Assembly: GCF_002355595.1 (NCBI RefSeq)
Contig: NZ_AP017422.1
Coordinates: forward strand, 7,320,823 to 7,384,822
Source: Filimonas lacunae
Lineage (GTDB): Bacteria; Bacteroidota; Bacteroidia; Chitinophagales; Chitinophagaceae
Direction: 5' to 3'
Length of the DNA: 64,000 nt
The position numbers were made by a program, and so were the translations under genes. The notes under the pieces are model-generated. The model had not been told where the DNA came from. It worked only from the letters and a program-made list of their open reading frames with translations, and did no database searches. This document shows positions 6,840 to 58,100 of this stretch, piece by piece. Within the stretch, counting starts at the first letter, position 1. Each line of letters begins with the position of its first letter.

Positions 6840-7541
6840 TCAGCAGGAAAAGACGAAGCCTACACCATACACGTTGTTAATGGCTATTTTCTTAGACCGG
6901 CTTAAATGTTTGCGCAGGCGCGAAACAAACACATCCAGGCTACGGCCCAGGAAGTAATCATTCTCGCCCCACAACTGTTGCAATATTTCTTCGCGTTTTA
7001 AAATGCGGTTCTGGTTTTTAAATAAAAAGTCCAGCAGTTCGGCTTCGCGAACGGTAAGTGCTATTTCGTGGTGTTGAATGGTCAGTTTTAGCAGGTCTTT
7101 ATAAAAAAGCACATCGTGCAGTTCCACACAATCGGGTGCAGGCACAGCAGGTTGTATATCTATATGATTGCGGCGGATGATGTTTTTCATGCGCAGCACC
7201 AGTTCGTCAATATCAAAGGGCTTGGTTATGTAGTCGTCGGCCCCGATTTTTAAACCATGCAAACGGTCTTTCTTTTCGTTGCGTGCGGTGAGGAATAAAA
7301 AAGGGATATTACTTTTTAGGGCAATCAGCTGATCGGCCAGTTCAAAGCCATTCATGCCGGGCATGCTTACATCTATCAGCATAATATGATAGCCATTAGG
7401 GTTGGCTTTAAACTTTTGCAATGCCAGCAAACCATTCTCGCACCAGTCTACTTCAAATTCCATTATCTCCAGGTATTGCTTAATCACATTGCCCAGGTCA
7501 GTTTCATCTTCTACAAATAATACTTTGGTTTTCATGTGCAT
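6840..7541 (-). CDS. OmpR/PhoB-family response regulator
   Basis: A 233-residue protein with an N-terminal receiver domain (phospho-acceptor Asp57 in MLIDVSMPG, conserved Lys in ITKPFDIDEL) and a C-terminal winged helix (about 135-232) with the usual VREAELLDFLFKN and SLDVFVSRLRKHL segments. It is encoded 5 bp downstream of a sensor kinase and should be its partner. The pair is transcribed away from the SusC gene and is the nearest regulator of the carbohydrate locus. The start may be at 7535, since two in-frame ATGs lie two codons apart. Confidence 0.93.
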   Translation of the reverse strand: MHMKTKVLFVEDETDLGNVIKQYLEIMEFEVDWCENGLLALQKFKANPNGYHIMLIDVSMPGMNGFELADQLIALKSNIPFLFLTARNEKKDRLHGLKIGADDYITKPFDIDELVLRMKNIIRRNHIDIQPAVPAPDCVELHDVLFYKDLLKLTIQHHEIALTVREAELLDFLFKNQNRILKREEILQQLWGENDYFLGRSLDVFVSRLRKHLSRSKKIAINNVYGVGFVFSC

Positions 7542-45100: not shown

Positions 45101-46548
45101 TGAATGCCGCCTAAACAAAGGTATTTGGTAATAAGGTAGTCTTCTATACCATAGAAACTACCTTCTTTTCCATATCCGCTTTGTTTAATACCACCAAACG
45201 GTACTTCTGCAAAAGAGATAATTCCTTCATTTATTCCAATAATGCCATACTGCAACTGCTCCGCAATACGCCATACCTGTTGCACATCTTTTGAAAAGAA
45301 ATAAGCGGCTAATCCATATTCGGTATTATTGGCTAAGGCAATAGCTTCTTCCACGGTTTCAAACACATATACAGCACTTACAGGGCCAAAGATTTCTTCC
45401 CTGCTTAACTCCATTTCGGGTGTGCAGTGGGTGATAATAGTAGGCTCGAAAAACAGCGGGCCTGCACTATGTACCTTACCGCCACAGAGCAGCTCTGCTC
45501 CTTTGTCAAACGCATCTTTTAACAGCTTCTGTATTTTGTCGATGGCGTCCTGGTTAATCAGTGGGCCTATGGTTACGCCATCAGTAGTGCCGTTGCCTAC
45601 TTGCATAGCCATAACGGCTTCCTGGTAGGCTTTCATAAAGGCAGGGTAAATGTCTTTTTGCACCAGCACACGATTGGCGCATACACAGGTTTGCCCGGCA
45701 TTGCGGTATTTGCTGGCCAGTGTGCCTTTTACGGCCTGCTGCAGATCGGCATCGTTAAACACAATAGCGGGGGCATTGCCGCCCAGTTCCAGTGATAACT
45801 TTTTAAGGGTAGAAGAGGACTGCTGCATCAGTATGCGGCCTACCTCGGTAGAGCCTGTAAAAGAGATTTTATGTACAGCCGGGTGTGTGGTTAACAGCTT
45901 GCCTGTTTCCGCAGCTTGTAAAGTGGTGATCACATTTAATACGCCGGCAGGTAGTCCTGCTTCTTTAGCCAGCTGGGCTAAAGCCAGGGCGCATAAAGGT
46001 GTGTCTTCTGCGGGCTTTAGTACTACCGTACAGCCAGCTGCCAGGGCTGGCGCTATTTTGCGGGTGATCATAGCTATGGGGAAGTTCCAGGGGGTAATGG
46101 CAGCTACAACACCAATGGGCTGTTTGATGGTAAAGAAACGCCTGTCGGCTACCGGGGCGGGTATCACCTGTCCGTAAGTGCGGCGGCACTCTTCGGCAAA
46201 CCATTCAATAAAAGACGCACCGTACTGTACTTCTCCTTTGGCTTCTGTAAGTGGCTTGCCTTGTTCGGTAGTAAGTAATAAAGCCAGATCATTGCTGTGT
46301 TGTATAATTAGCTGGTACCACTTTTTAAGAATGTCGCTTCGTTCCTTGGCGGGTTTATTGCTCCAGGCTGGAAAAGCGGCATCAGCGGCTTGTATGGCCT
46401 GTTCCGTTTCGGCAACGCCTGCGTTATATACGTTGGTGATAACCTCGCCGTTGGCGGGATTGTATACGGGAAAGGTAGCCGCGCCTGTTTGCCAGTTGTT
46501 ATTGATAAAAATACCTTGTTGCAGTAAAGCCGGATATGTGAGTTGCAT
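45097..46548 (-). CDS. gabD: NAD(P)-dependent succinate-semialdehyde dehydrogenase
   Basis: A 483-residue aldehyde dehydrogenase with the catalytic Cys288 in NAGQTCVCANR, general-base Glu254 in LSLELGGNAP and the cofactor loop FTGSTEVGRIL. The TPWNFPIAMITRKIAPALAAG region and the length fit the GabD/SSADH subfamily, which oxidises succinate semialdehyde to succinate in 4-aminobutyrate degradation. No GABA transaminase gene is nearby, so the precise substrate is less certain than the family. Confidence 0.92.
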   Translation of the reverse strand: MQLTYPALLQQGIFINNNWQTGAATFPVYNPANGEVITNVYNAGVAETEQAIQAADAAFPAWSNKPAKERSDILKKWYQLIIQHSNDLALLLTTEQGKPLTEAKGEVQYGASFIEWFAEECRRTYGQVIPAPVADRRFFTIKQPIGVVAAITPWNFPIAMITRKIAPALAAGCTVVLKPAEDTPLCALALAQLAKEAGLPAGVLNVITTLQAAETGKLLTTHPAVHKISFTGSTEVGRILMQQSSSTLKKLSLELGGNAPAIVFNDADLQQAVKGTLASKYRNAGQTCVCANRVLVQKDIYPAFMKAYQEAVMAMQVGNGTTDGVTIGPLINQDAIDKIQKLLKDAFDKGAELLCGGKVHSAGPLFFEPTIITHCTPEMELSREEIFGPVSAVYVFETVEEAIALANNTEYGLAAYFFSKDVQQVWRIAEQLQYGIIGINEGIISFAEVPFGGIKQSGYGKEGSFYGIEDYLITKYLCLGGIH

Positions 46549-46614
46549 AATAGTATTGTTATAAAAAGCAATACTAACAAAACGATGCCAGAAATGGTTG
46601 TGTTAAAAATGGGC

Positions 46615-47460
46615 TTAATGATTGTCGGCTTTGGCGCTTTCCCAGCCTATAATGGCAGTTTTGCGGGTAAGCCCCCAATGGTAACCACCTAAAGCGCCGC
46701 TGGTGCGTATTACACGATGGCAGGGAATAAGAAAAGCCACCGGGTTATCACCTACAGCAGTGCCTACTGCACGGCTGGCGCGTGGATGTTGCAGGGCATT
46801 GGCTATATCAGAATAGGTGGTGAGGTGCCCCATGGGTATTTTTAATAAGGCTTCCCACACTTTCAGCTGAAAAGCGGTGCCTTTTAAATGCAGTTTTATT
46901 TCGGATAGCTTGCTCCAATCCTGCGTAAATAGGAATAGGGCGTTCTGTTGTATCCTGTCGGTCATTTGCTCAAAGTGGGCATTAGGAAACTGGTGTTGTA
47001 GTTGAACAAATGCCTGCTGTGGCTCTTCGGCAAAAGCCATATAGCAAATGCCTTTAGTGGTAGATGCTATTATAAATGGTCCGAAAGGGCTTTCGGCAAA
47101 GCTGTAGTGTATGCTGAGCGCCTGGCCACCGTTTTTGTACTCCCCGGGCGTCATACCTTCTATATTCATAAACAGGTCGTGCAGGCGGCCGGTGCCGGAT
47201 AGGCCAGTTTCGAAGGCGGCGTCGGATAAAGTGTATTGTCTGGTTTTAAGTATATGCTTGGCATGTTCCAGGCTGAGGTATTGCAGAAACTTTTTAGGGC
47301 TTACACCGGTCCATTCTGTAAACAGGCGTTGAAAATGGTAAGGGCTGATATGCACGTGCGCAGCCACCTCTTCCAGCGAAGGTTGTTGTGTGAGGTGCTG
47401 CTGTATATAATCTATTGCCTGTGCAATGCTGTTATAGTGTGTTTGTTGTTGCGTTTCCAT
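46615..47460 (-). CDS. AraC helix-turn-helix fused to O6-methylguanine-DNA methyltransferase (Ada-like, without the Ada zinc domain)
   Basis: About 281 residues from the ATG at 47460. Residues 1-95 carry an AraC-type domain (EEVAAHVHISPYHFQRLFTE, GVSPKKFLQYLSLEHAKHIL). The C-terminal half is a methyltransferase with the PCHRVI active-site motif (reactive Cys) and GGYHWGLTRKTAIIGWE. It removes methyl groups from O6-methylguanine. The N-terminal zinc domain of E. coli Ada that senses methyl phosphotriesters is absent. The frame extends to 47511 but the start before METQQQTHYN is better. Confidence 0.92.
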   Translation of the reverse strand: METQQQTHYNSIAQAIDYIQQHLTQQPSLEEVAAHVHISPYHFQRLFTEWTGVSPKKFLQYLSLEHAKHILKTRQYTLSDAAFETGLSGTGRLHDLFMNIEGMTPGEYKNGGQALSIHYSFAESPFGPFIIASTTKGICYMAFAEEPQQAFVQLQHQFPNAHFEQMTDRIQQNALFLFTQDWSKLSEIKLHLKGTAFQLKVWEALLKIPMGHLTTYSDIANALQHPRASRAVGTAVGDNPVAFLIPCHRVIRTSGALGGYHWGLTRKTAIIGWESAKADNH

Positions 47461-47523
47461 ATTACGTTGCTTATACTTACCAAAGGTACCTTTGCATAGA
47501 TGCGCAGGCAACCCGTTTCTTGC

Positions 47524-48552
47524 TTATTCCGTTTGCGCTGCTGCATCGTATCTATCCATGGAAGCGGCTATGCGTTTCTTTATTTTAGAAGCCAGCAGAC
47601 GGGGAGATAACACTTTCATACATTCGCCAAAGCCCAGGATTTCCCTTTCCAGTTCAAAATTCAGTACCACTTCTATACGGATGATAATACCTGTTTCGTC
47701 TTCTTTCAATACTTCTTGCGAAGCGTGCAAGGGCTTGGTAATTACATAGGGTGCGTTATACTTGTTTACATGCAGAACTACCTTATAGGTTTTATCCTTT
47801 TGAGTTTTGGTAACTCCTATTAAATCGCTGAAATAGGTATCGAAGTCTATGCCTTTATATTCTACAAATTTTTCATCAGGGGCTGGTTCAAAATTAAGTA
47901 TCCTGTCTAGTGCCAGTGTTAACAAATGATTTCCTCTTTTAGGTTTGGCCAGCAGGAACCAGCGGTTGCGGTATTCTTTCAGCAGGTAAGGGTGATAAAT
48001 CTCCTTGCGTGGCTGTAGGGCTTTGAACGACTGGTATTCTATAAACAGTGTTCTTTGATGCAGTATATGCTGGTATAGCGGGTTGATATGCTGTAAACCC
48101 CGGAGTTGTTTATTGTCTTCAAACTGAATGCAGTTGCGGCTTTGATGTGTGCTGTAATACAGGTTGTTTTCCAGCCGGGCAATAATTTCGCTCATCTCTT
48201 CAAAATAGCTGAACCCGTTGAATTGTTTCAGCAATCCCACCACCACTTTCATCTTTTCTACATCTGCATCGTTAATGGGTGTTTGAGTAATGCTATACTC
48301 GGCATCTTCGTAGGTGTAATACTTTTTATCCATCACAATAATGGGGGCATTGTATCCTAATTTATCGCTGCGCATCAGTTGAATGTCGGCCTGTATGGTG
48401 CGTTTGCTTACACCGTTTTCAATGCCTTCATTGTCATATAATACTTCACTTACTTTTTCAATGATGTCGTCGAGTGTCCATTTTCTGCGACGGTTTCTTA
48501 AACAATCATCAATGGTTTTATAACGGATAAGGGCTAGTTTGTTAATAGACAT
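47524..48552 (-). CDS. WYL-domain transcriptional regulator of the RNA-repair locus
   Basis: About 342 residues from the ATG at 48552 (MSINKLALIRYKTIDDCLRN). The N-terminal winged helix-turn-helix (residues about 5-75: RRKWTLDDIIEKVSEVLYD, SKRTIQADIQLMRSD) is followed by a WYL domain (about 155-240: HQRTLFIEYQSFKALQPRKE, YLLKEYRNRWFLLAKPKRG) and a WCX-type C-terminal domain. WYL regulators can bind nucleic-acid-derived ligands and often control defence or DNA/RNA damage genes. It is divergent from the RING/TerD-like, nucleotidyltransferase and RtcB genes. The longer frame to 48762 is promoter DNA. Confidence 0.88.
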   Translation of the reverse strand: MSINKLALIRYKTIDDCLRNRRRKWTLDDIIEKVSEVLYDNEGIENGVSKRTIQADIQLMRSDKLGYNAPIIVMDKKYYTYEDAEYSITQTPINDADVEKMKVVVGLLKQFNGFSYFEEMSEIIARLENNLYYSTHQSRNCIQFEDNKQLRGLQHINPLYQHILHQRTLFIEYQSFKALQPRKEIYHPYLLKEYRNRWFLLAKPKRGNHLLTLALDRILNFEPAPDEKFVEYKGIDFDTYFSDLIGVTKTQKDKTYKVVLHVNKYNAPYVITKPLHASQEVLKEDETGIIIRIEVVLNFELEREILGFGECMKVLSPRLLASKIKKRIAASMDRYDAAAQTE

Positions 48553-48576
48553 AACGTGTATTGTGGGTTTAAAAAT

Positions 48577-48613
48577 AAAAGATACCATGCAAACTGCGCA
48601 GTGGAATTGCGCA
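48577..48613 (-). promoter_or_regulatory. Candidate promoter and operator of the WYL gene (two TGCGCA sites)
   Basis: On the minus strand TATCTTTT (48584-48577) resembles a -7 element. Just upstream of it lie two palindromic TGCGCA sites, 48595-48600 and 48608-48613, 7 bp apart. A third, 48706-48711, lies farther toward the operon. Such closely spaced palindromes could be regulator binding sites. No function is proven. Confidence 0.4.
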
Positions 48614-48705
48614 AATAAATAATTTGTAAAGTGGTGGAAAGTTTTTTGTGTGCTAACTGATTGAAAAACAATTTTTTGTAGCCTTGTTTGGAAAAGATTT
48701 TTTTC

Positions 48706-48742
48706 TGCGCACATCCCTTGCGTAGTGGCAGGGCCATCTTTG
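48706..48742 (+). promoter_or_regulatory. Candidate promoter region of the tRNA-like RNA and RNA-repair operon
   Basis: CATCTTTG at 48735-48742 is one base off TANNTTTG, and the third TGCGCA site (48706-48711) lies just upstream. A transcript from here would cover the tRNA-like element and then the operon. A second, weaker candidate, TAGCCTTG, lies about 50 bp upstream. Both lack a well-spaced -33 element. Confidence 0.3.
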
Positions 48743-48769
48743 ATGTATCGAAGGTTGGTCAAGAATAAG

Positions 48770-48779
48770 TTACTTCAAA
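48770..48779. repeat. Left copy of a 10-nt direct repeat flanking the tRNA-like RNA
   Basis: TTACTTCAAA here is repeated exactly at 48960-48969, beyond the tRNA-like element. The two copies are 190 bp apart and enclose the element. A related TTACTTACTT doublet (48936-48945 and 48956-48965) lies next to the right copy. Confidence 0.6.
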
Positions 48780-48821
48780 AACCCTTTTAAGTTCCACTGA
48801 TTCCATTACCTCTTCGAATAT

Positions 48822-48938
48822 AAAGCAGTAGCTCAATTGGTAGAGCAATGTAATAAGTTTTGTAATTATCGTTCCGGTCAAATCAAACTTACTACTTAAG
48901 GGATACATGGGATGTTGGTTCGAGTCCAGCCTGCTTTA
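48822..48938 (+). ncRNA. tRNA-like RNA with a 44-nt insertion in the anticodon loop
   Basis: Acceptor arms AAAGCAG (48822-48828) and CTGCTTT (48931-48937) pair 7/7, with discriminator A48938 and no encoded CCA. T8 and A9 follow. The D stem GCTC/GAGC (48831-48834, 48843-48846) has loop AATTGGTA with A14, A15, G18, G19, A21. An anticodon stem ATGTA/TACAT (48848-48852, 48904-48908) pairs 5/5. A 5-nt variable loop ends in T48 and the T arm has loop TTCGAGT and a 5-bp stem with one G-U. U8-A14, A15-U48, G18-U55, G19-C56 and U54-A58 contacts are all possible. The anticodon loop is 51 nt (48853-48903) instead of 7. It has A32 and U33 at its start and a 7-bp hairpin (48854-48860 with 48885-48891). 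It lies 85 nt before the RNA-repair operon with no terminator between. Confidence 0.85.
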
Positions 48939-48959
48939 CTTACTTAGGTCAATTGTTAC

Positions 48960-48969
48960 TTACTTCAAA
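48960..48969. repeat. Right copy of the 10-nt direct repeat flanking the tRNA-like RNA
   Basis: This is TTACTTCAAA, identical to 48770-48779. It lies between the acceptor end of the tRNA-like element and the operon start codon at 49024. Confidence 0.6.
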
Positions 48970-49023
48970 CATCTATTAGGAAGACAGCAGTAGCAACATT
49001 ATCTGGTTTAAAAAACAGCAATT

Positions 49024-51231
49024 ATGAAAGGTTTATTACAGGTGAGTTTACGTCAAAAAGCATTGTTTGTTCCTGCTGCTGCCCGTAAAGTGCAGGCGGG
49101 AAGTTTAACAGGCACTTGTGCTGTGCTGGTGGCTAACCTGGCTAAACTGGGTTATGGCGTGTCGCCTGATCTGTTGTATGCATTAGGCGGTGCTACGCCT
49201 GCTTATCATGCGCAGGTGCTGGCTACTATGAAAGAGGTGATGGGCGTAAACAAAAACTGGGCGCCGCTGGTGAAAGATTGGGGTAATGCTACCGGTGAAA
49301 ACTTGCTGGATCATATTATCACCTACTTTACCAATCTGTTCCAGGGTAAAGGAACCCGCCTGGAGTGTGGGCATATTATACCTGCCAATACTTTTCCATT
49401 AGAGCGTTATAACGGATGCCCTTATTGCGGTATGCCTTTTATTACAGAAGAATTGAAGCTGACCAAAAACAATGGTAAGCTGAAAGTGCTGGAATTGTGG
49501 ACAGAGAAAGATGCGGAAGCATTTTTATATGATCTGCTGTTGTCTAAAACGGCACTGGATGCTACACAAACAGAAAGCCTGAATGCATTGCTGGATGTTT
49601 TTCCATTACCAATGGTAGATATTGCGATGAAGGAAACCCGTATGGCGGTGATTGATAAACTGGTGGCTTTGGATAAAGCACAGGATGCTCAGGCTTTGTT
49701 TAGCAGCCCTGCTGATATCATGCGTTACCTGTGGTTTAAGCATACTGGTTTTTTGCAGATCATAGAGCCTGCTGTAATGGCCAAACGTTATGTGCGTAAC
49801 AGAACAGTAGCGAACAAATTACAGGCGAAAGAAAAGCTGAAACTGAAATATACCCGGAAGCAAAGTGTGGTGATAGCACAGTGGTTAAACCACCTGCCTA
49901 TGAGCGATAATGCTATGTGTGAAGTAATGCATGCTAAAAGAGCTATGTGGGTGCGTTTTATACGTGCATTGCGTTTGCCGGAGTATAGCCAGCGTGCTGG
50001 TTTTGAAAAACTGAAATCGGTATTGGATAAGTTCTATAACGAAGAGTATAGTGTATGGCAGGGTCAGGTGAATAAGGGGAGAAATCAGTATGATGCTGAT
50101 GCTACTTTTCAACTGTTGAAACAACGTCCGGGTTTATTTGCGCGTTCGCTGTTTGCCAATATGCTGTGGTTTGGAAAAGAAGAGACGGCAGTTGCATTTG
50201 CAGATATTATTGATAAGGTGCCTGCACGCTTGTTAATAACGCTGGATATGTATGCAGAAGACTATTTTACTAAAAACAGCACACGTGTAGTAAAGCCTTT
50301 AGGAGGTATTCAGAAAGTGGTACCAGGGAATATATTGTTAAGCATATATGAACAGGACGATCTGGATGCTATGCGTAAAGAAGTAAGAGCATTGTGTTTG
50401 CTGGCGGTGAAAAAGCGTTTTGAAAAAATACCTAACAGTAACAAAAGCATGTTCATTGCTCCAGAATTATTCCAGATTCCATTGTCCATAGGCGATAGAA
50501 GCAGCAGTGTGCAGGATATGCCGGCGGCATTAATGGGTACCCGTTTTAAACTGGAAAGCAATACGGTTCGTTTGTTTATGCAGTGGGGTACAGGGTTGGC
50601 AGCCGCTCACCTGGATATGGATTTAAGCTGCCTGGTTACTTATGCTAGCAGCGTGGATAGATGTTCTTATAGCTCGTTGGTAATAACTGGTTGTAAGCAT
50701 AGCGGAGATATCCGGTCTATTCCTGATAAAGTAGGTACAGCCGAATATATAGAAATAGATACGGCAGTATTACGAAAAGCAGGTGCGGGTTATGTGATAT
50801 TCTCCTGTAACGCCTATACTGCGGGTGCTATTACGCCCAACCTGGTAGTGGGTTGGATGAACAGCAGGCATCCGATGAAAATTTCGGAGAGAACGGGAGT
50901 GGCTTATAACCCTGCACATGTGCAACACCAGGTGCGTGTGGTGAACAAGTTAGATAAAGGGCTGGTGTTTGGTGTACTGGATGTGGAACGTAATGAAGTG
51001 GTGTGGCTGGAAATGCCGTTTGATGGTCCGATTGTTCAGTGTATGGATACCAACGGGGTAACCTTGTTGTTGAGAAAGCTGGCCGCTAAAACTACCATAG
51101 GACAGCTGTTAACTATGAAAGCAGCAGCGCAGCAACTGGCTTTGGCCAATGCAGCTGAGGAGGCCGATGAAGTGTATTCGAAAGAATGGGCATTTAATAC
51201 GGCAGCGGTAACGCAATTGTTAATTGATTAA
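49024..51231 (+). CDS. Large zinc-knuckle (RING-like) and TerD-like protein of the RNA-repair operon
   Basis: A 735-residue protein. Residues 1-100 are helical (FVPAAARKVQ, LAKLGYGVSPDLLYAL). A zinc site follows with Cys115-x-His117 (CGHIIPANT) and Cys132-x2-Cys135 (GCPYCGMPF). A long helical region (about 160-500, with QRPGLFARSLFANMLWFG) leads to a beta-rich TerD-like segment with LDMDLSC (530-536), KHSGD (558-562) and EYIEIDTAVLRKAG. From memory the order resembles the family named after MXAN_6230/SCO0854, a RING-domain family of unknown function. It is not a recognisable Ro60/TROVE protein: no von Willebrand A metal motif was seen. It is first in the operon, followed 11 bp later by the nucleotidyltransferase. 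Confidence 0.75.
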   Translation: MKGLLQVSLRQKALFVPAAARKVQAGSLTGTCAVLVANLAKLGYGVSPDLLYALGGATPAYHAQVLATMKEVMGVNKNWAPLVKDWGNATGENLLDHIITYFTNLFQGKGTRLECGHIIPANTFPLERYNGCPYCGMPFITEELKLTKNNGKLKVLELWTEKDAEAFLYDLLLSKTALDATQTESLNALLDVFPLPMVDIAMKETRMAVIDKLVALDKAQDAQALFSSPADIMRYLWFKHTGFLQIIEPAVMAKRYVRNRTVANKLQAKEKLKLKYTRKQSVVIAQWLNHLPMSDNAMCEVMHAKRAMWVRFIRALRLPEYSQRAGFEKLKSVLDKFYNEEYSVWQGQVNKGRNQYDADATFQLLKQRPGLFARSLFANMLWFGKEETAVAFADIIDKVPARLLITLDMYAEDYFTKNSTRVVKPLGGIQKVVPGNILLSIYEQDDLDAMRKEVRALCLLAVKKRFEKIPNSNKSMFIAPELFQIPLSIGDRSSSVQDMPAALMGTRFKLESNTVRLFMQWGTGLAAAHLDMDLSCLVTYASSVDRCSYSSLVITGCKHSGDIRSIPDKVGTAEYIEIDTAVLRKAGAGYVIFSCNAYTAGAITPNLVVGWMNSRHPMKISERTGVAYNPAHVQHQVRVVNKLDKGLVFGVLDVERNEVVWLEMPFDGPIVQCMDTNGVTLLLRKLAAKTTIGQLLTMKAAAQQLALANAAEEADEVYSKEWAFNTAAVTQLLID

Positions 51232-51242
51232 AGGAGAGAGGT

Positions 51243-52019
51243 ATGAGAAATAGAATAGAACAAAAACTGAAAGATATAGAGCGGGAGTACCAGGTGAAAA
51301 TACTGTACTCCTGCGAATCGGGAAGCAGGGCGTGGCAGTTTCCTTCACCCGATAGCGATTTTGATGTACGGTTTATATATGTACATAACAGGAACGCGTA
51401 TTGGTCTATAGCAGAAAAAGAAGATCATATCAGTTTACCTATAGTAGATGAACTGGATATATATGGCTGGGATTTGAGGAAGGTATTGCAGTTGATGCGA
51501 AAGTCGAATGCCACTCCTTTTGAATGGATGCAGTCGCCTATAGTATATAAAGAGAAGGAAGGTTTTTTAGATGGGTTGCACAATCTGGCTCCTGATTATT
51601 TGGATGTGCGGGTGAGTGCGTGCCATTATATGGGCATGGTAAGAAAGCTTACCGGTGAAGAAATGACCGGTGCGCCCCTTACGATAAAGGCATTGTTTTA
51701 TATCATAAGGTCGTTGTTGTCGGCAAAATGGAACCTTGATACAAGGGGGATAGCACCGTTGACTATTGATGATCTGTTGTGTATCTTGCCGGAAGCTTTG
51801 CAACAGCATGTGAAAGAGCTGGTATTGTTTAAGGCCACCGCTAAAGAAAAACAGGAGGTAGCTGCAAGTGATCTGTTGAAAAACTATATCAATGCTACTA
51901 TCGCGGAATGCAACGCAGCTATCAGCGGACTGGAAAAGAGAAACACAAGTGTAGACAAACTGGATGCGTTCTTTATAAAAACACTACAGGAATATGACTA
52001 TTCAGGAATTGAAAGATAA
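51243..52019 (+). CDS. Pol-beta-superfamily nucleotidyltransferase, first of two
   Basis: A 258-residue protein with the nucleotidyltransferase signature SGSRAWQFPSPDSDFDVRF (Gly27-Ser28, metal Asp39 and Asp41) and a third acidic strand near DELDIYGWDLRKVL. The family is the COG3541 type of predicted nucleotidyltransferase, which transfers NMP units to RNA or protein. A strong AGGAGAGAGG ribosome-binding site lies just upstream, unusual in Bacteroidota. Its 3' end overlaps the second nucleotidyltransferase by 26 bp. Next to RtcB, a role in rebuilding damaged RNA 3' ends is plausible. Confidence 0.88.
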   Translation: MRNRIEQKLKDIEREYQVKILYSCESGSRAWQFPSPDSDFDVRFIYVHNRNAYWSIAEKEDHISLPIVDELDIYGWDLRKVLQLMRKSNATPFEWMQSPIVYKEKEGFLDGLHNLAPDYLDVRVSACHYMGMVRKLTGEEMTGAPLTIKALFYIIRSLLSAKWNLDTRGIAPLTIDDLLCILPEALQQHVKELVLFKATAKEKQEVAASDLLKNYINATIAECNAAISGLEKRNTSVDKLDAFFIKTLQEYDYSGIER

Positions 52020-53052
52020 AGGGTTATTGTTGCTGGAATGTGTAAGCGGTAGCAGGGCTTACGGGCTGGCTACTGCACAGTCTGATACCGATATCAGGGG
52101 TGTTTATTATTGGCCTAAAGAAAAGTTTTATGGGCTGGATTATATTGACCAGGTAAGTAACAGCACCAATGATGAGGTATACTACGAATTGGGAAAGTTT
52201 ATGGCCCTGCTTCTAAAAAACAACCCTAACATACTGGAACTGCTGGCCGCGCCGGATAACTGTGTTTTATACAGGCACCCGCTAATGCAGCAATTGTCGC
52301 CTGACCTGTTTTTATCTGCTTTGTGCAAGGAAACTTTTGGCAACTATGCACTTACACAGATAAAGAAAGCCAGGGGGCTGAATAAAAAAATGATGCGGCC
52401 GGTAGAGAAAGAGCGCAAAGGGGTATTGGATTTTTGCTATGTGATGCAAGGGCAGGATGCCATTGCTTTACCTGCCTGGCTTATAGCGCAGGGATGGCAA
52501 CAGGAGCGCTGCGGGCTGGCAGCTATGTCACATGCAAAAGGATTGTATGCTTTGTATTACGATGTCGATAACACCCTGAAATATCGCGGTATAGTAAGCA
52601 GTGAACTGGCAAATGAAGTTTGTTTGTCTTCTATTCCGAAAGGGGAAAAGATAGTCGCTTATCTTCATTGTAATATAGATGGCTACTCTATGTATTGCAA
52701 AGAATACCGCGAATACTGGGAGTGGATGGAGAAACGCAATGAAGATCGTTATCAGAGTAACCAGGCACATGGCGGGGAGTATGATGCTAAAAACATGATG
52801 CACACGATACGACTGTTGCAGGTGGCAGAGGAAATAGCAAGAACAGGAACGCTGGTGGTAAAACGCCCGAACAGGGAGGAGTTGCTGGCTATTAAATCGG
52901 GCGCTTACAGTTATGAGCAACTGTTGCAAATGGCAGAAGACTTACAGGAAAAGCTGGTAATAGCCTACAGGGATACCGCTTTGCAGCAAACACCTGATAA
53001 AGACAAGATTGAAAACATATTAGTGGCTATGCGTGATAAACTATATAGCTAA
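51994..53052 (+). CDS. Pol-beta-superfamily nucleotidyltransferase, second of two
   Basis: A 352-residue protein with the same fold signature SGSRAYGLATAQSDTDIRGVYY (Gly19-Ser20, Asp31-x-Asp33), LNKKMMRPVEKERKGVLDFCY after the catalytic core and a longer C-terminal helical region (SKEYREYWEWMEKRNEDRY type). It is a paralogue, not a duplicate, of the preceding gene and overlaps it by 26 bp, so the two are probably translated in a coupled manner. The RtcB gene follows 18 bp later. Confidence 0.88.
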   Translation: MTIQELKDKGLLLLECVSGSRAYGLATAQSDTDIRGVYYWPKEKFYGLDYIDQVSNSTNDEVYYELGKFMALLLKNNPNILELLAAPDNCVLYRHPLMQQLSPDLFLSALCKETFGNYALTQIKKARGLNKKMMRPVEKERKGVLDFCYVMQGQDAIALPAWLIAQGWQQERCGLAAMSHAKGLYALYYDVDNTLKYRGIVSSELANEVCLSSIPKGEKIVAYLHCNIDGYSMYCKEYREYWEWMEKRNEDRYQSNQAHGGEYDAKNMMHTIRLLQVAEEIARTGTLVVKRPNREELLAIKSGAYSYEQLLQMAEDLQEKLVIAYRDTALQQTPDKDKIENILVAMRDKLYS

Positions 53053-53070
53053 CTATATAAAACGGAACTT

Positions 53071-54492
53071 ATGAAAACAGAGATAAACGGAGATGATTTA
53101 CTGGCCATTGGTTATACCGAAGGCCGTGTGTTGGGGGAAGCCTTGAAAGCGGCGGCAGCATTGCCGGATATAACACGGGAAGAATTGCTGGCATTGCTAA
53201 CGAAGGTGAAACAGTATCCGGAGAACTTTTTGGATGACGAGCATATGGAGTCATTAGCTACAGCCCTGATTGAAGAATTGAATAAGCCGGTAGATACTAC
53301 TATTGCCCTGATAGAAGAAAAAAGAGAATATGCCGTATATGGTGCGGATTATATAGAGGAAGGCGCAGGTAAGCAAATGGCAATAGCGATGCAATTGCCC
53401 GTTACGGTGGCAGGGGCATTAATGCCTGATGCGCACCAGGGATATGGCTTACCTATAGGTGGTGTGCTGGCTACCCGTAACGCTATTATTCCTTATGGCG
53501 TGGGTGTGGATATCGGTTGTAGAATGGCGTTATCGGTATTTGATATCCCGGCAGAACATTTCTATGAGAACGAAGCTATTTATAAACGTGAACTGATAGC
53601 GCATACCAAGTTTGGTGCGGGACATGGTTTTCATGGCCGTTATAAAGCTGACCATGCGGTATTAGACCGGAGCGAATTCAATATTACCCCGTTTGTTAAA
53701 AATCTGCAGGATAAAGCTGCATCACAACTGGGATCTTCGGGGGGAGGTAACCACTTTGTGGAATGGGGTATTATTGAATTTGAACAGCGTGACGAAGTAT
53801 TGAATATAGAAAAGGGTAAATACCTGGCTTTGTTATCGCATTCCGGATCGAGAGGTTTGGGGGCTACTATAGCAGGATATTATACCAGGCTGGCAAAAGA
53901 TATTTGCCGTTTACCTAAAGAGGCTGCTAACCTGGCCTACCTGGATATGGCATCAGAAGCCGGGCAGGAATACTGGCTGGCTATGAACCTGGCAGGCGAT
54001 TATGCTTCGGCATGTCACGAAGTAATTCATAATAAGTTAACCGCGGCCGTAGGGGCGCGTGTATTAGCCAAGGTGGAAAACCACCATAACTTTGCCTGGA
54101 AAGAGCAATGGCATGGTGAAGAAGTGATTGTGCATAGAAAAGGAGCCACGCCAGCCGGTAAAGATGTGATGGGTATTATTCCGGGTAGCATGACAGCGCC
54201 AGGCTTCCTGGTAAGAGGTAAAGGGAATGAAGATGCTATTAACTCCGCTTCGCATGGTGCCGGACGCCAGTTAAGCCGTACCAAGGCTATTCAGCAGATA
54301 TCGCAGCAGGATATGAAGGCGGTGTTGAAAGAGCATGGTGTTACCTTAATCGGGGCCGGTTTGGATGAAGCGCCTATGGCGTATAAGGATATTCATAAAG
54401 TAATGGCTGCCCAGCATGACCTGGTAGATGTTGTTGCCCGTTTTGAACCTAAAATGGTGCGTATGGCAGATGATGGCAGCAAAGAAGATTAA
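53071..54492 (+). CDS. rtcB: RNA 3'-phosphate/2',3'-cyclic-phosphate ligase RtcB
   Basis: A 473-residue RtcB. It has the metal-binding Cys150 in GVDIGCRM, GAGHGFHGRY, the SGGGNHFVEWG motif (His228), SHSGSRGLG, HNFAWKEQW, RKGATPAGKD and the guanylated His395 in NSASHGAGRQ. The enzyme uses GTP and manganese to join RNA 2',3'-cyclic phosphate or 3'-phosphate ends to 5'-OH ends, in tRNA splicing and RNA repair. The length is that of the archaeal/long bacterial form rather than the 408-residue E. coli enzyme. No archease gene is present. It is last in the operon with two nucleotidyltransferases and the zinc/TerD-like protein. Confidence 0.97.
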   Translation: MKTEINGDDLLAIGYTEGRVLGEALKAAAALPDITREELLALLTKVKQYPENFLDDEHMESLATALIEELNKPVDTTIALIEEKREYAVYGADYIEEGAGKQMAIAMQLPVTVAGALMPDAHQGYGLPIGGVLATRNAIIPYGVGVDIGCRMALSVFDIPAEHFYENEAIYKRELIAHTKFGAGHGFHGRYKADHAVLDRSEFNITPFVKNLQDKAASQLGSSGGGNHFVEWGIIEFEQRDEVLNIEKGKYLALLSHSGSRGLGATIAGYYTRLAKDICRLPKEAANLAYLDMASEAGQEYWLAMNLAGDYASACHEVIHNKLTAAVGARVLAKVENHHNFAWKEQWHGEEVIVHRKGATPAGKDVMGIIPGSMTAPGFLVRGKGNEDAINSASHGAGRQLSRTKAIQQISQQDMKAVLKEHGVTLIGAGLDEAPMAYKDIHKVMAAQHDLVDVVARFEPKMVRMADDGSKED

Positions 54493-54533
54493 TTCATCAA
54501 CAGATGCCTTATATAAGGTAATCTGATAGTGTT

Positions 54534-54608
54534 GCAGGAAAAGCTGCTTCCCGCTTTGTTCAGGTTTTATTTAGGGCCTGTGCAGGGGAAGTTGTTTTTC
54601 CTGCTTTT
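54534..54608 (+). terminator. Long structured hairpin after the rtcB gene, probable terminator
   Basis: The arms 54534-54552 and 54586-54604 pair over 19 positions (16 Watson-Crick, 2 G-U, 1 mismatch), with an inner CAGG/CCTG hairpin (54561-54564, 54577-54580), followed by TTTTGT. It ends the RNA-repair transcript 42 bp past the stop codon. The large size is unusual for a simple terminator. Confidence 0.65.
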
Positions 54609-54652
54609 GTATAAAAGGAATGTGTGTAGCTGATGTTATATCAGTAAAAATA

Positions 54653-55069
54653 TTATGCTTTTACAAACGAGAGCATATACTTAGCTATAGTTAAGAAAGA
54701 AGCTACATCATTGGGTTTGGTAATATAATCAGCTGCACCTAGTTCCATACTCATGGCTTTAAATACCGGTGAGCTGGAAGTGCTCCATATAATTTTGGGT
54801 ATCTCCTGGTAGCGGGAATGATTATTCAGTTCCTTTACAACTTCCACTCCTGTTAATTCCGGGATATTATAGTCCAGCACCAGCAAAGCGGGAAGGTCTT
54901 TATCCTGTATAGTGTCTAAGTACGACACAAACTTTCTTCCATTAGGTATACATACAACCTGCCACGACGGATCAATTTCTCCAAACGCGCTTTCTAATAG
55001 TTCCTGATCGTCACTGTCGTCCTCAGCCAACAAAATCAGCCTGTTTAAATGGCCTAAAAATTGCATCAA
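54653..55069 (-). CDS. Stand-alone receiver-domain response regulator
   Basis: A 138-residue protein consisting of one receiver domain: acidic patch AEDDSDD, phospho-acceptor Asp66 in LLVLDYNIPELTG, Ser/Thr in IIWSTSSS and Lys in DYITKPNDV. The DYNIPELTG pattern and the absence of an output domain resemble Rcp1/CheY-like regulators that act as phosphorelay shuttles. It is divergent from, and 122 bp from, the giant hybrid kinase, a natural partner. Confidence 0.9.
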   Translation of the reverse strand: MMQFLGHLNRLILLAEDDSDDQELLESAFGEIDPSWQVVCIPNGRKFVSYLDTIQDKDLPALLVLDYNIPELTGVEVVKELNNHSRYQEIPKIIWSTSSSPVFKAMSMELGAADYITKPNDVASFLTIAKYMLSFVKA

Positions 55070-55191
55070 ATTAAATGGTTATATGAAAGGTGCTGCTAAA
55101 TTACTATTTGGTTTTCATATGAAAGCAATGCTTCTCGATAACCTGAACAGATATTTTTATCTTTTATCAAGTTTAAACTCTAATACCTTTC

Positions 55192-58100
55192 ATGACTGCT
55201 CCCAAAAAGAGAACTGCAAAAGTCTCTTTACCAACTGATACTGTGGAAAATATTCCGCAAAATGGATCTGCGAAAAAGTCGCACAGCGAAGAATTAGATA
55301 CTCCTGAACTATTGAGGGTGTTACTGGATGTTAAGAATGGAAACTTTAGTGTGCGAATGCCTGGCGATAGTACAGGGTTAAGCGGTAAAATCTGTGATAC
55401 CGTAAATGAGATTATATCGCTGAATGAATTATTAGTGGAAGAATTAATGCTCGCCCGTAATACTATTGGTAAAAAAGGCAGGCTCAACCACCGTGTAGAA
55501 ATGCCGCGAAGCGCCAGAGGCTCGTGGAGTGTGGCGGTAGGTTCTATTAATAGCCTGATCTCCGATCTGGTTCATCCCACCATTGAAATTGCACACGTAA
55601 TCAGCTCTGTGGCAAAGGGAAATCTGTCGCAGGAAATGCCATTACAGATAGAAGACCACGTTTTACAGGGGGAGTTTGCGCGTATTGCCACCGAGGTGAA
55701 CGAAATGGTGAAACAGCTAAACCTGTTTTCCCGTGAGGTAACCCGTGTGGCGCGCGAAGTGGGATCGGAAGGTAAACTGGGCGGCCAGGCCAAGGTGAAA
55801 GATGTGGCGGGTGTATGGAAAGATCTGACCGATTCGGTGAACCAGATGGCGGGTAACCTTACTGCGCAGGTTCGTAACATTGCGGAGGTAACTACCGCGG
55901 TGGCAAAAGGGGATTTGTCGAAGAAGATTACGGTGGATGTGCAGGGCGAGATATTGGAGCTGAAGGATACTATTAATACGATGGTGGATCAGCTGAACTC
56001 TTTTTCATCGGAAGTAACGCGTGTGGCGCGGGAAGTGGGTACCGATGGTAAGCTGGGTGGCCAGGCAGAAGTAAAAGGTGTGGCCGGTACGTGGAAAGAC
56101 TTAACTGATTCTGTAAATAAAATGGCCAGTAACCTTACGGGCCAGGTGCGTAACATTGCGGAGGTAACTACTGCGGTGGCACGTGGCGACTTGTCGCGTA
56201 AGATTACGGTGGACGTAAAAGGAGAAATCCTGGAACTGAAAAATACCATTAACACCATGGTGGATCAGTTGAACTCCTTCTCGGCGGAAGTAACGCGTGT
56301 GGCGCGTGAGGTAGGTTCGGAAGGTAAACTGGGTGGACAGGCCACGGTAAAAGGCGTGGGTGGTGTATGGAAAGATTTGACCGATTCGGTAAACCAAATG
56401 GCGGGTAACCTTACAGCCCAGGTGCGTAATATTGCCGAGGTAACTACGGCGGTGGCCAATGGTGACTTATCCAAGAAAATTACGGTGGATGTTGCCGGTG
56501 AGATATTAGAGCTGAAGAAAACCATTAACACGATGGTGGATCAGCTGAACTCTTTTGCATCGGAAGTAACGCGTGTGGCATTGGAAGTGGGTACGGAAGG
56601 TAAACTGGGTGGCCAGGCGAAAGTGCAGGGTGTGGGCGGTACCTGGAAGGATTTGACCGATTCGGTAAACCAGATGGGAAGTAACCTTACTGCGCAGGTG
56701 CGTAACATTGCCGAGGTAACTACGGCGGTGGCGAATGGTGACTTATCTAAGAAAATTACGGTGGATGTTGCCGGTGAGATATTGGAGCTGAAGAAAACCA
56801 TTAACACGATGGTGGATCAGCTGAACTCTTTTGCATCGGAAGTAACGCGTGTGGCATTGGAGGTGGGTACAGAAGGTAAGCTCGGTGGCCAGGCGAAAGT
56901 GCAGGGCGTGGGTGGTACCTGGAAAGACTTAACAGAGTCGGTAAACCAGATGGGAAGTAACCTTACTGCCCAGGTACGTAACATTGCCGAGGTAACTACG
57001 GCGGTGGCGAAAGGTGATTTGTCGCGCAAGATTACGGTGGATGTAAAAGGGGAAATTCTGGAATTAAAGAACACCATTAACACGATGGTGGATCAGTTGA
57101 ACTCCTTTGGATCGGAAGTGTTTCGGGTGGCGCGTGAAGTGGGGTCGGAAGGTAAGCTGGGTGGCCAGGCAGATGTACCGGGTGTGGAAGGTTTATGGAA
57201 AGACTTAACGGATTCGGTAAACATCATGGCCTCTAACCTTACTTCGCAGGTGCGTAACATTGCGGAGGTTACTACGGCGGTAGCGAATGGTGACTTGTCG
57301 CGCAAGATTGAAGTAGATGTAAAAGGAGAGATCCTGGAGCTGAAGAATACGATTAACACGATGGTGGAGCAGCTGCGTTCCTTTGCATCGGAAGTAACGC
57401 GTGTGGCGCGTGAAGTGGGTACGGAAGGTAAGCTGGGTGGCCAGGCAAACGTGCCGGGTGTAGGTGGTACCTGGAAAGATTTAACCGACTCGGTAAACAT
57501 GATGGCGGGTAACCTTACTGCCCAGGTGCGTAACATTGCCGATGTGGCTATTGCGGTGGCGAATGGGGATATGAGCCGTAAGATTACGGTGGATGTGCGT
57601 GGGGAGATATTGCAATTAAAAGAAACGCTGAACACGATGGTGGATCAGCTTCGTGCGTTTGCATCGGAAGTAACGCGTGTGGCGCGTGAGGTGGGTACGG
57701 ATGGTAAACTGGGTGGCCAGGCGTTTGTGCCTGGTGTGGCCGGTACCTGGAAAGACCTTACCGACTCGGTAAACCAGATGACGGGTAACCTTACGGGGCA
57801 GGTGCGTAACATTGCCGAGGTAACCAAGGCGGTGGCATCGGGTGACTTATCGAAGAAAGTAACCATTGATGTAAAGGGGGAGATATTTGATTTGAAGAAC
57901 ACCATTAACACGATGGTGGATCAGCTGAACTCTTTTGCGTTTGAGGTAACGCGTGTAGCGCGTGAAGTGGGTACGGAAGGTAAGCTGGGTGGACAAGCAG
58001 AGGTGCAAGGCGTGGGTGGTACCTGGAAAGACTTAACCGATTCGGTGAACATGATGGCTTCTAACCTTACCAACCAGGTAAGGGGTATTGCCAAGGTGGT

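Follow-up and report, generated by a model that had tools for sequence, protein, structure and literature searches.

The window, by which we mean the whole 64,000-nucleotide stretch of Filimonas lacunae DNA that was analysed, carries a 735-residue protein gene with a series of structured RNAs on its 5' side, a divergent regulator gene, and RNA-repair genes downstream. The features are listed below with their evidence in brackets; R1 and R2 denote our hairpin and tRNA-like models, which match their own rows by construction, and A3 and A4 the hairpin and tRNA-like alignments.

47524-48552, minus strand: divergent WYL/WCX regulator (WYL 37.3 bits, WCX 37.1 bits)
48706-48724, no strand: palindrome TGCGCA-N7-TGCGTA, a candidate operator for the WYL regulator (similar palindromes in the loci of relatives)
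48756-48811, plus strand: free hairpin module 1, GGUCAA-7bp-UUACUUC...7bp'-C-AUUACC, 6/7 pairs (R1 55.5 bits; stem pairing; A3 covariation)
48822-48938, plus strand: tRNA-like RNA with tRNA acceptor, D and T arms and an anticodon arm extended by the module (RF00005 49.1 bits, above 29; R2 109.9 bits, for a sequence that is itself a row of this model; A4 covariation)
48857-48895, plus strand: module within the tRNA-like RNA, in the order B-A, GUUUUGU-A-AUUAUC ... GGUCAA-AUCAAAC-UUACUAC (sequence reading, alignment A4)
48946-49004, plus strand: free hairpin module 2, immediately 5' of the start codon (R1 62.6 bits; 7/7 pairs)
49024-51231, plus strand: 735-residue protein, a putative scaffold and distant MXAN_6230/SCO0854 relative (open reading frame; NF041916 match)
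49366-49428, plus strand: zinc-knuckle-like cluster C115-x-H117-x14-C132-x2-C135 (invariance; sub-threshold Prok-RING_4)
49471-50463, plus strand: helical core spanning residues 150-480, whose modelled fold resembles TROVE (model pLDDT 87; Ro60 alignments)
50548-51072, plus strand: TerD domain, residues 509-683 (Z 12.4-14.8 against three structures titled TerD)
51243-52019, plus strand: RlaP nucleotidyltransferase 1 (PF10127, 236.8 bits)
51994-53052, plus strand: RlaP nucleotidyltransferase 2 (PF10127, 88 bits)
53071-54492, plus strand: RtcB RNA ligase (PF01139, 271.8 bits)

The reading frame of the central protein is genuine and starts with ATG. For the regulator, whose frame was listed as 47524-48762, the ATG at 48552 is the likelier start. 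Palindromes similar to the putative operator occur in 41 of 50 loci with a WYL gene versus 12 of 31 without one. Relatives of the protein are encoded in 426 stretches, fetched by two peptide patterns; the best 80 of these, together with the window, form the 81 loci considered here, two loci with partial genes (L008 and L009) having been left out.

Architecture of the 735-residue protein

The protein matches NCBIfam NF041916 over residues 8-718 (E 1.2e-35), collinear with profile positions 5-758 of 842 and thus over the full-length architecture, at 122.9 bits, below the curated equivalog score of 600. Relatives from a Streptomyces plasmid and from Variovorax score 1156.7 and 477.5 bits. The kinship to RING/TerD-like proteins of the MXAN_6230/SCO0854 type, proposed in an earlier sequence-only reading, was therefore right in kind, but the protein differs from that family in its low score and in a RING reduced to four ligands. 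The C-x-H...C-x2-C motif noted in that reading is indeed conserved: C115, H117, C132 and C135 are invariant in 14/14 relatives retrieved without any peptide pattern and also in 42/42 of a wider set. The former set is the cleaner test, because the latter was mostly pattern-fetched and one of the two patterns spans C132-C135. Residues around 100-140, however, do not make a complete RING, as had been considered: Prok-RING_4 reaches 16.8 bits (cut-off 27) over a partial 15-37 of 46 positions, and the single four-ligand cluster provides half the ligands of a RING, which requires two zinc sites. The protein had no match in PADLOC and no relative in IMG/VR, PDB sequence searches with the full and core profiles returned weak ABC-transporter matches only, and neither SCO0854 nor MXAN_6230, used as queries, was found in the literature searched.

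The helical core claimed by the same reading is present in the model. When the core alone was compared with the PDB, the first of 967 aligned chains was Deinococcus Ro60 (2nvo; Z 7.9, 258/331 residues, 6.3 Å) and the third was again Ro60 (9nep; Z 7.2, 268/331 residues, 6.7 Å). CAND1 at rank 2 about ties with Ro60 (Z 7.8) over 95 residues, and the non-Ro60 chains among the 50 matches listed align over 73-110 residues, or over 153-244 at an rmsd above 12 Å. A Z of 7.9 between helical repeat domains may reflect a common arrangement. The Ro60 matches came from the VIA second look, Foldseek with the core alone giving no match at E ≤ 0.001, and Ro60 was absent from the 50 matches listed for the full-length model.

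The likeness of the core to Ro60 is only a fold resemblance in the model, in which a ring of HEAT-like repeats may be present. TROVE (PF05731) was absent among the 25 of 28 families listed for 42 core sequences at E ≤ 10, its profile did not match the full protein at E ≤ 1, an hhalign profile comparison with 16 TROVE proteins gave 0.2%, and a PDB sequence search with the core profile retrieved no Ro60 chain. The protein also lacks the C-terminal vWA domain of Ro60, with TerD standing there instead, and adds the zinc-type cluster. The suggestion that it acts in place of Ro60 thus gains weight from the top-scoring chain of the core, but a true TROVE protein is encoded elsewhere in the Filimonas lacunae genome, and Ro60 is therefore not simply replaced.

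Residues ~509-683 adopt the TerD fold, as comparison with the structures titled TerD revealed: 3ibz (Z 14.8, 149 residues, 3.2 Å), 2qz7 (Z 13.5) and 2kxt (Z 12.4). The same region aligned with 2qng (Z 13.4; titled as of unknown function) and 9a6r_B, a GLPD-SCP2 model (Z 14.1), and the radial spoke chain 7jtk_A reached Z 12.8 with 182 residues aligned across 179-689; the match following these scored only Z 5.9. As with Ro60, these matches emerged from the VIA second look, Foldseek alone finding nothing for the full model at E ≤ 0.001. Comparison over residues 500-640 had been proposed together with a TerD-like domain bearing LDMDLSC and KHSGD, and both the fold and these motifs hold up: D531-x-D533-L-S and H559-S-G-D562 are invariant in 42/42 sequences. 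DxDLS and HSGD are what we take to be the TerD signature. Known TerD binds Ca2+ (title of 2kxt), and D531, D533 and H559-D562 may form a predicted Ca2+ site here. The domain thus resembles TerD, a tellurite/stress and Ca-binding protein, in fold and signature, and differs in being the C-terminal domain of a large multidomain protein; no further Ter protein was found among the six operon-region proteins scanned.

Hairpin modules and tRNA-like RNAs

Sense-strand hairpins of the form GGUCAA-[7 bp]-UUACUUC...[7 bp']-N-AUUAYC lie upstream of the gene in 81/81 loci. We counted 321 A strands within 1.5 kb upstream and 4 farther upstream, while the reverse strand had none over 1.33 Mb. The spacing between the boxes is exactly 7 nt in 319 of the 321, with 5-10 allowed, and a partner strand with 6-7 of 7 pairs exists for 230 of these 319, against about 72 for decoy stems. 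Covariation in A3 is 0.717, compared with 0.215 after shuffling and at most 0.151 after sliding. The percentage paired in A3 is inflated because only hairpins with 6 or 7 of 7 stem pairs were admitted as rows, 69 of the 79 non-redundant ones being used; the unselected figure is the 230/319 above.

The tRNA-like RNA of the window has acceptor, D and T arms, and the module fills its anticodon arm in place of a 7-nt anticodon loop; ARAGORN called no tRNA at 48822-48938. On the upstream stretches of the loci, this program called a few tRNAs, most of them apparently ordinary genes, and mostly passed over the tRNA-likes. The 32 rows of alignment A4, drawn from modules in which D and T arms could be recognised and from five Rfam tRNA matches, gave a covariation of 0.426 versus 0.199 shuffled and at most 0.125 slid. 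When the window and 47 of the 80 other loci were scored, tRNA-likes holding the module reached R2 ≥59 bits in 40/48 sources, were weak in 6/48 and absent in 2/48. The three window RNAs have unremarkable minimum free energies (z -0.65 to -0.93), a measure uninformative for single RNAs. Rfam 15, applied to window positions 46000-56000 and to four loci, calls these structured RNAs 'tRNA' or leaves them unnamed, and pointing them out is one use of the present analysis.

The RNAs and the protein also occur together in genomes. Of 296 genomes in the phylum, R1 matched 8, and exactly these hold the protein family (Fisher 7.5e-16); R2 exceeded 100 bits in 7 of these and in 0 of the other 288, the remaining one (G427) having the protein and R2 below 100 bits; the genome scans used stricter filters, by which weak matches are lost. 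The association of the protein with a tRNA-like RNA, anticipated from the window, is thereby supported. That small folded RNAs, a tRNA mimic among them, stand before the gene in all relatives examined suggests that the protein and these RNAs assemble into a repair particle similar to that of Ro60 and Y RNA.

The same RNAs could alternatively form a regulatory leader, in which the protein, or else tRNA-processing enzymes, would bind the 5' leader of the protein's own mRNA to set expression of the repair operon, with the tRNA-like acting as a sensor or bait for tRNA-cutting nucleases. The window RNAs all fall within the interval from the putative operator to the start codon, in 65/81 loci the last A strand starts 41-100 nt 5' of the approximate start codon, and PMC7790460 describes a response to tRNA fragments by a repair operon elsewhere. 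However, the six tRNA-likes that locus L026 spreads across 1.4 kb exceed the needs of a leader, the module is found inside tRNA-likes as well, and the YrlA-like arrangement of a phage relative fits a free RNA. We regard the leader as possible, but doubtful.

Exchangeable repair genes and a candidate Ro-like particle

The sequence-only reading was correct in placing the 735-residue gene in an RtcB operon: two RlaP genes and RtcB lie downstream, and the tRNA-like RNA is at 48822-48938. Across the family, the protein-RNA core stays constant while RNA ligases of differing chemistry are swapped behind it: RtcB occurs in 28/81 loci (one of which, L081, has a distant upstream gene outside the operon), ATP-grasp ligases in 12/81 and both in 0/81, with at least 7 ligase changes on the tree; neighbour clusters were labelled from one representative each. 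Outside the 38/81 loci classed by record title as Flavobacterium-type, a ligase is nearby in only 5/43 loci and any repair gene in 11/43 (window included; some flanks short). The constant partner is therefore the RNA, not the ligase. RtcB was found elsewhere in the genome for all 20 tested of the 53 loci without an adjacent RtcB, compared with 51/99 in the phylum, an excess that is a weak point because genome sizes differ.

In archaea and animals, tRNA splicing uses RtcB as its ligase, and the insert sits at the anticodon arm, so that the module could be read as an intron cut from a tRNA whose exons RtcB joins; by eye, a tRNA-Gly-like anticodon loop precedes the module in one copy (L026 6760). 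Yet the 5' anticodon strand is missing in 10-11 of 32 A4 rows, and removal of the module therefore leaves no anticodon stem. Free hairpins with the same boxes exist outside any tRNA-like, and 38/43 loci outside Flavobacterium have no adjacent ligase. We consider an intron very improbable.

It is also unlikely, if slightly less so, that the protein is a TerD-type stress protein unlinked to RNA, with RNA genes and ligases as chance neighbours in a mobile stress island. The patchy distribution of relatives (9/147 family genomes, 2 of the 9 being partial matches), a Deinococcus relative near a DISARM gene and the 41/81 loci without a ligase in the stored flanks would suit such an island, but the strand-specific RNA in every locus and the identical genome sets of RNA and protein argue against it. 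A 585-residue protein of another family, with a TerD-like motif, likewise has its own, different RNA module in 15/15 loci. This motif rests on reading by eye, because the C-terminal parts of the two proteins do not align (2%); profile comparison gave weak N-terminal and middle similarity only (middle E 0.0004, probability 35%; whole 21.5%). A simple search found fully paired stems (5/5 pairs) for only 10/41 copies of its module.

We consider it reasonably probable that the 735-residue protein is the core of an RNP particle that works like Ro60 with Y RNA and serves RNA repair; we infer both its binding and its function. As its binding site we propose the 7-bp helix of fixed length with GGUCAA/AUUAYC and UUACUUC at its ends; to judge from Ro60, the helical core of the protein would probably make the contact. 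With a canonical acceptor and canonical D and T arms, the body of the tRNA-like may recruit the substrates of tRNA-handling enzymes or mimic them. In the window, RlaP and RtcB would thereby be presented with broken tRNAs, or with structured RNAs of another kind; elsewhere the particle would serve Rnl1/Pnkp, Pnkp/Hen1 or a DEDD exonuclease. The TerD domain may adjust the particle's activity or its location, and RNA damage probably induces the operon through the divergent WYL protein. Such a particle would give the MXAN_6230/SCO0854-type family a concrete, testable role and an RNA partner.

Burroughs and Aravind reportedly described in 2016 RtcB-RlaP and Pnkp-Hen1 RNA repair operons with an SPFH/Band-7 scaffold and a tRNA-like RNA. 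Both arrangements unite a ligase, RlaP, a scaffold and a tRNA-like RNA in an operon, whereas the scaffold protein here is different. The parallels with the Ro60 (Rsr)-YrlA/Y RNA RNP are a core that may resemble the Ro60 ring and, with Ro60 RNA-repair operons, the encoding with RtcB beside a divergent regulator. PMC8394870 describes hairpin elements and a tRNA-like domain in one RNA for YrlA, and the partner RNA here likewise joins the two. Unlike Y RNA and YrlA, however, the tRNA-like is unpermuted and each locus has several hairpins. Scores with the YrlA model RF02553 are weak (26-41 bits, cut-off 69); in the window it had no match at E ≤ 1 in 46000-56000 or at E ≤ 5 in 48560-49060. One match in L026 (34.2 bits) was rejected, as it runs from the T arm of one tRNA-like into the D arm of the following one. 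According to PMC7790460, what Ro60 and Y RNA do in bacterial RNA repair has still to be established.

More tentatively, and with less than even confidence, the TerD-bearing members of this superfamily could form a second lineage of Ro-type RNPs. Their core would be a TROVE ring too diverged to be recognised from sequence, every clade would have a Y-RNA-like RNA of its own, and the whole would be a constant platform for exchangeable RNA ligases in cells and phages. In Bacteroidota this RNA would be an unpermuted tRNA mimic, in Chryseobacterium-like genomes a different module accompanying the 585-residue protein, in a Rhodobacter phage a permuted, YrlA-like mimic, and in Variovorax a set of tandem hairpins. 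With a second, independent or deeply diverged Ro-like version and its conserved 7-bp module, comparison could ask what the job of the tRNA mimic is. Parallels that favour the Ro60-like particle itself come from relatives: that of Segatella (47% identity) has the tRNA-like and the hairpins, that of Variovorax is divergent to rtcR, and that of the Rhodobacter phage lies among tRNAs beside an RlaP, with the permuted tRNA mimic upstream scoring 40.7 bits (Rfam cut-off 69).

RNA genes upstream of the scaffold gene

The 735-residue reading frame is present as the sequence-only reading had it, and the RtcB operon in which that reading placed it was recovered: two RlaP nucleotidyltransferases, then RtcB, follow the gene. 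A WYL/WCX regulator lies 5' of it in divergent orientation, and the RNA features precede the start codon.

Features of the locus in the window
48706-48724: palindrome (TGCGCA-N7-TGCGTA), on the 5' side of the first hairpin
48756-48811: free hairpin
48822-48938: tRNA-like RNA, between the WYL/WCX regulator and the 735-residue gene (Rfam tRNA model, 49.1 bits)
48946-49004: free hairpin
49024-51231, plus strand: 735-residue scaffold protein

ARAGORN made no tRNA call at 48822-48938. Palindromes similar to that at 48706-48724 occur at 41 of the 50 loci with a WYL gene versus 12 of the 31 without one, and the element is likely a WYL operator. In Flavobacterium, the WYL gene is separated from the RNA genes by a gene of cluster c2. 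This c2 gene encodes a protein of about 204 residues (stored locus L088, 6396-7007, minus strand, and 33 other loci) whose representative has no Pfam match; in the c2 region of another locus, L057, a Flavo-1 RNA scored below threshold (41.2 bits against a cut-off of 42).

The motif repeated 5' of the gene has two strands. Strand A consists of GGTCAA, 7 nt and TTACTTC, and strand B is the complement of those 7 nt, followed by one nucleotide and by ATTACC or ATTATC. A search of 1.33 Mb, permitting 5-10 nt between the strand-A boxes, revealed 321 sense-strand copies at most 1.5 kb upstream of the gene, distributed over all 81 loci (80 loci of relatives and the window), plus four at a greater distance upstream; the reverse strand had no copy. 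The spacing is exactly 7 nt in 319 of the 321, and 230 of these 319 have a strand-B partner with 6-7 of 7 pairs, versus about 72 expected from decoy stems. In the 7.8-Mb window genome the motif occurs four times, twice at this locus, and a reversed control pattern five times.

The module adopts two arrangements. In the free hairpin, A precedes B, while the tRNA-like RNA, which has canonical acceptor, D and T arms, carries it within the anticodon arm in the order B-A. One of the free hairpins is usually located immediately 5' of the start codon. Hairpin covariation was 0.717 (shuffled, 0.215; slid, at most 0.151) in an alignment whose rows were picked for stem pairing. For the tRNA-like RNA the values were 0.426, 0.199 and at most 0.125, and both-sided changes occur in 24 of 32 pairs versus 15.3 after shuffling. 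These pair counts support both structures; the energies obtained by folding each of the three window RNAs singly are unremarkable. The hairpin model R1 matches all 48 sources (the window and 47 of the 80 loci), and of its 129 matches 128 lie upstream in the sense orientation. With the tRNA-like model R2, 40 of the 48 reach 59 bits or more upstream and six others 32-51 bits; the remaining two, L032 and L050, have no match. Over window positions 46000-56000 and four of the 80 loci, Rfam labels the tRNA-like RNAs 'tRNA' and names no hairpin above any cut-off. A Microscilla locus (L026, 6540-7980) bears an array of six tRNA-like RNAs with the module, in which two spacers are long and look near-identical.

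Family and fold of the scaffold protein

The proposed kinship with MXAN_6230/SCO0854 proteins was borne out by a near-full-length alignment to the NCBIfam model NF041916 (residues 8-718, E 1.2e-35), but the score, 122.9 bits, falls below the curated cut-off of 600 bits. Judged by this alignment, the protein is a relative of the family and a non-member by its cut-off. Relatives were found in 9 of 147 genomes of the same taxonomic family. A contig-collection scan gave 426 stretches encoding one, of which the best 80 were used; by record title each of these 80 is either from Bacteroidota or a MAG that lacks a finer name, and the nearest named genome among them is Filimonas zeae (67% identity). 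The names SCO0854 and MXAN_6230 retrieved no paper in the literature searched.

The RING or zinc-knuckle assignment holds in part. C115, H117, C132 and C135 are invariant in 14 relatives collected without peptide patterns and in a 42-sequence alignment, as are, in the latter, the TerD signatures D531-M-D533-L-S-C and H559-S-G-D562. Only this one four-ligand cluster is present, with no second, and the clade therefore keeps half a RING; the relatives from Streptomyces and Variovorax score above the cut-off of Prok-RING_4.

Foldseek alone, comparing the full-length AlphaFold2 model (mean pLDDT 78.8) with the PDB, gave no match at E <= 0.001. Structural realignment placed residues ~509-683 on three TerD-titled entries (Z 12.4-14.8), in agreement with the TerD-like domain claimed from sequence; three further entries under other titles (2qng, 9a6r and 7jtk) reach Z 12.8-14.1, and the next falls to 5.9. 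The helical core (residues 150-480), folded separately (pLDDT 87), aligned best among 967 chains with Deinococcus Ro60 (2nvo; Z 7.9, 258 of 331 residues, 6.3 A), with Ro60 bound to misfolded pre-5S rRNA ranking third (9nep; Z 7.2, 268 residues, 6.7 A), although Z values of this size may arise by chance for helical repeats, as the tool warns. CAND1 ties with 2nvo (Z 7.8) but over 95 residues, and the other chains among the best 50 align over 73-110 residues, or over more only at an rmsd above 12 A. Since the Z may be chance and the sequence methods tried detected no TROVE domain in the core, we treat 'TROVE-like' as a fold resemblance of the model. A true TROVE (Ro60) protein is encoded elsewhere in the window genome (~6.845 Mb; locus L191, 6578-8143), where a TPP riboswitch was the sole Rfam match (E <= 0.5) in the 15 kb around the gene.

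Joint presence of protein and RNA, and the neighbouring ligases

NF041916 matches 8 of 296 genomes of the phylum, and R1 matches the same eight (Fisher's test, 7.5e-16). R2 exceeds 100 bits in seven of them; in the eighth (G427), which contains locus L045, it is weak (32.4 bits), and the other 288 reach at most 71.1 bits, the next best score.

Counted from the stored flanks of the 81 loci, the neighbours are a WYL regulator (50), RtcB (28; same strand and at most 1.9 kb downstream in 27), RlaP (13), an Rnl1-type ligase (11), a Pnkp-type ligase with Hen1 (8) and a DEDD exonuclease (7). RtcB (28) and ATP-grasp ligases (12) never share a locus. The 38 Flavobacterium-type loci divide into 23 with RtcB, 12 with an ATP-grasp ligase, none with both and three with neither (Fisher, 1.7e-7), and the protein tree requires at least seven exchanges between the two. 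Among the 43 other loci, window included, a ligase is nearby in 5 and any repair gene in 11, which counts against a simple 'RtcB cofactor' reading. RtcB was found elsewhere in 20 of 20 genomes lacking an adjacent copy (20 of 53 such loci taken), compared with 51 of 99 in a phylum sample. The RNA is thus the invariant partner of the protein, and the ligases are exchangeable.

A parallel system has a different scaffold. Three genomes without an NF041916 match gave R2 scores of 66-71 bits over matches longer than a tRNA. Near these lie RtcB, a tRNA-like RNA and tandem hairpins with other boxes (GGCAAA-5 nt-TTCCTATA), followed by a gene for a 585-residue protein and RlaP-like genes, with a WYL-type protein divergent.

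Gene of the parallel system
L152 5508-7262, minus strand: 585-residue protein, also at L192-L206, in genomes that are probably Chryseobacterium-like

This protein, found in 15 of 148 genomes of its taxonomic family, matches neither Pfam nor NCBIfam at E <= 0.01 (Pfam run on the L152 proteins only); its C-terminus, YDLDLSG...MYSGDMT, reads by eye as a TerD-like motif. The second module lies upstream of the gene in 15 of 15 loci (41 copies, none on the reverse strand), 11 of which have a tRNA-like RNA of 59-72 bits, and the first, GGTCAA-type module occurs in none of the 15. Scaffold type and module type thus go together, as would be expected of a module to which the protein binds.

Most likely, in our analysis, the 735-residue protein binds the module both as a free hairpin and where it is built into the tRNA-like RNA, and would form an RNP with these RNAs. 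Substrates of tRNA-handling enzymes would be recruited or mimicked by the tRNA body, and RlaP and the ligase would mend broken RNAs. Both the protein-RNA binding and the repair role are inferences, as is the release of the RNAs from the leader. The main rival explanation is that the hairpins and tRNA-like RNA upstream of the 735-residue gene act as a regulatory leader. Such an RNP would copy the logic of Ro60-YrlA and of the ROT/TROVE platform. Burroughs and Aravind (2016) reportedly described scaffolds of the Rot/TROVE and SPFH/Band-7 types, accompanied by Y RNAs and a tRNA-like molecule, and may already mention the protein or its RNAs. In the literature searched, RNA repair, TerD and RNA ligase come together only in a jumbo-phage review. 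YrlA binds Ro60 through its basal stem and PNPase through its tRNA-like domain (PMC8394870), and ROT/TROVE has been presented as an RNA-repair platform of RNP type that is partnered by a tRNA-like RNA (PMC7824862).

Wider relatives

Three more distant relatives are leads. That of Segatella (47% identity) has a tRNA-like RNA of 88.2 bits and two hairpins, and the next gene is a 3'-5' exonuclease. On a Variovorax plasmid (L155, 5951-11700; NF041916, 477.5 bits), the relative is divergent to rtcR, the RNA-repair activator; R1 and R2 have no match there, and two tandem hairpin-like repeats sharing CCTTCCTTCTAA...GAAAYTTAGGC lie downstream. In Rhodobacter phage RcXuper (L159, 2372-6453; 206.1 bits), it sits amid tRNA genes and adjoins RlaP. 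The region upstream of it carries four repeats that each terminate in an (A/C)CTTCTA box, together with a permuted tmRNA (RF04321, 108 bits) and a permuted tRNA mimic resembling YrlA, whose 40.7 bits fall short of the cut-off of 69.

A relative on a Deinococcus plasmid (L158) has DISARM drmD and a caspase-family protein in its neighbourhood, and two repeats ending in GCATCCTTC lie 5' of the gene (7314-7420).
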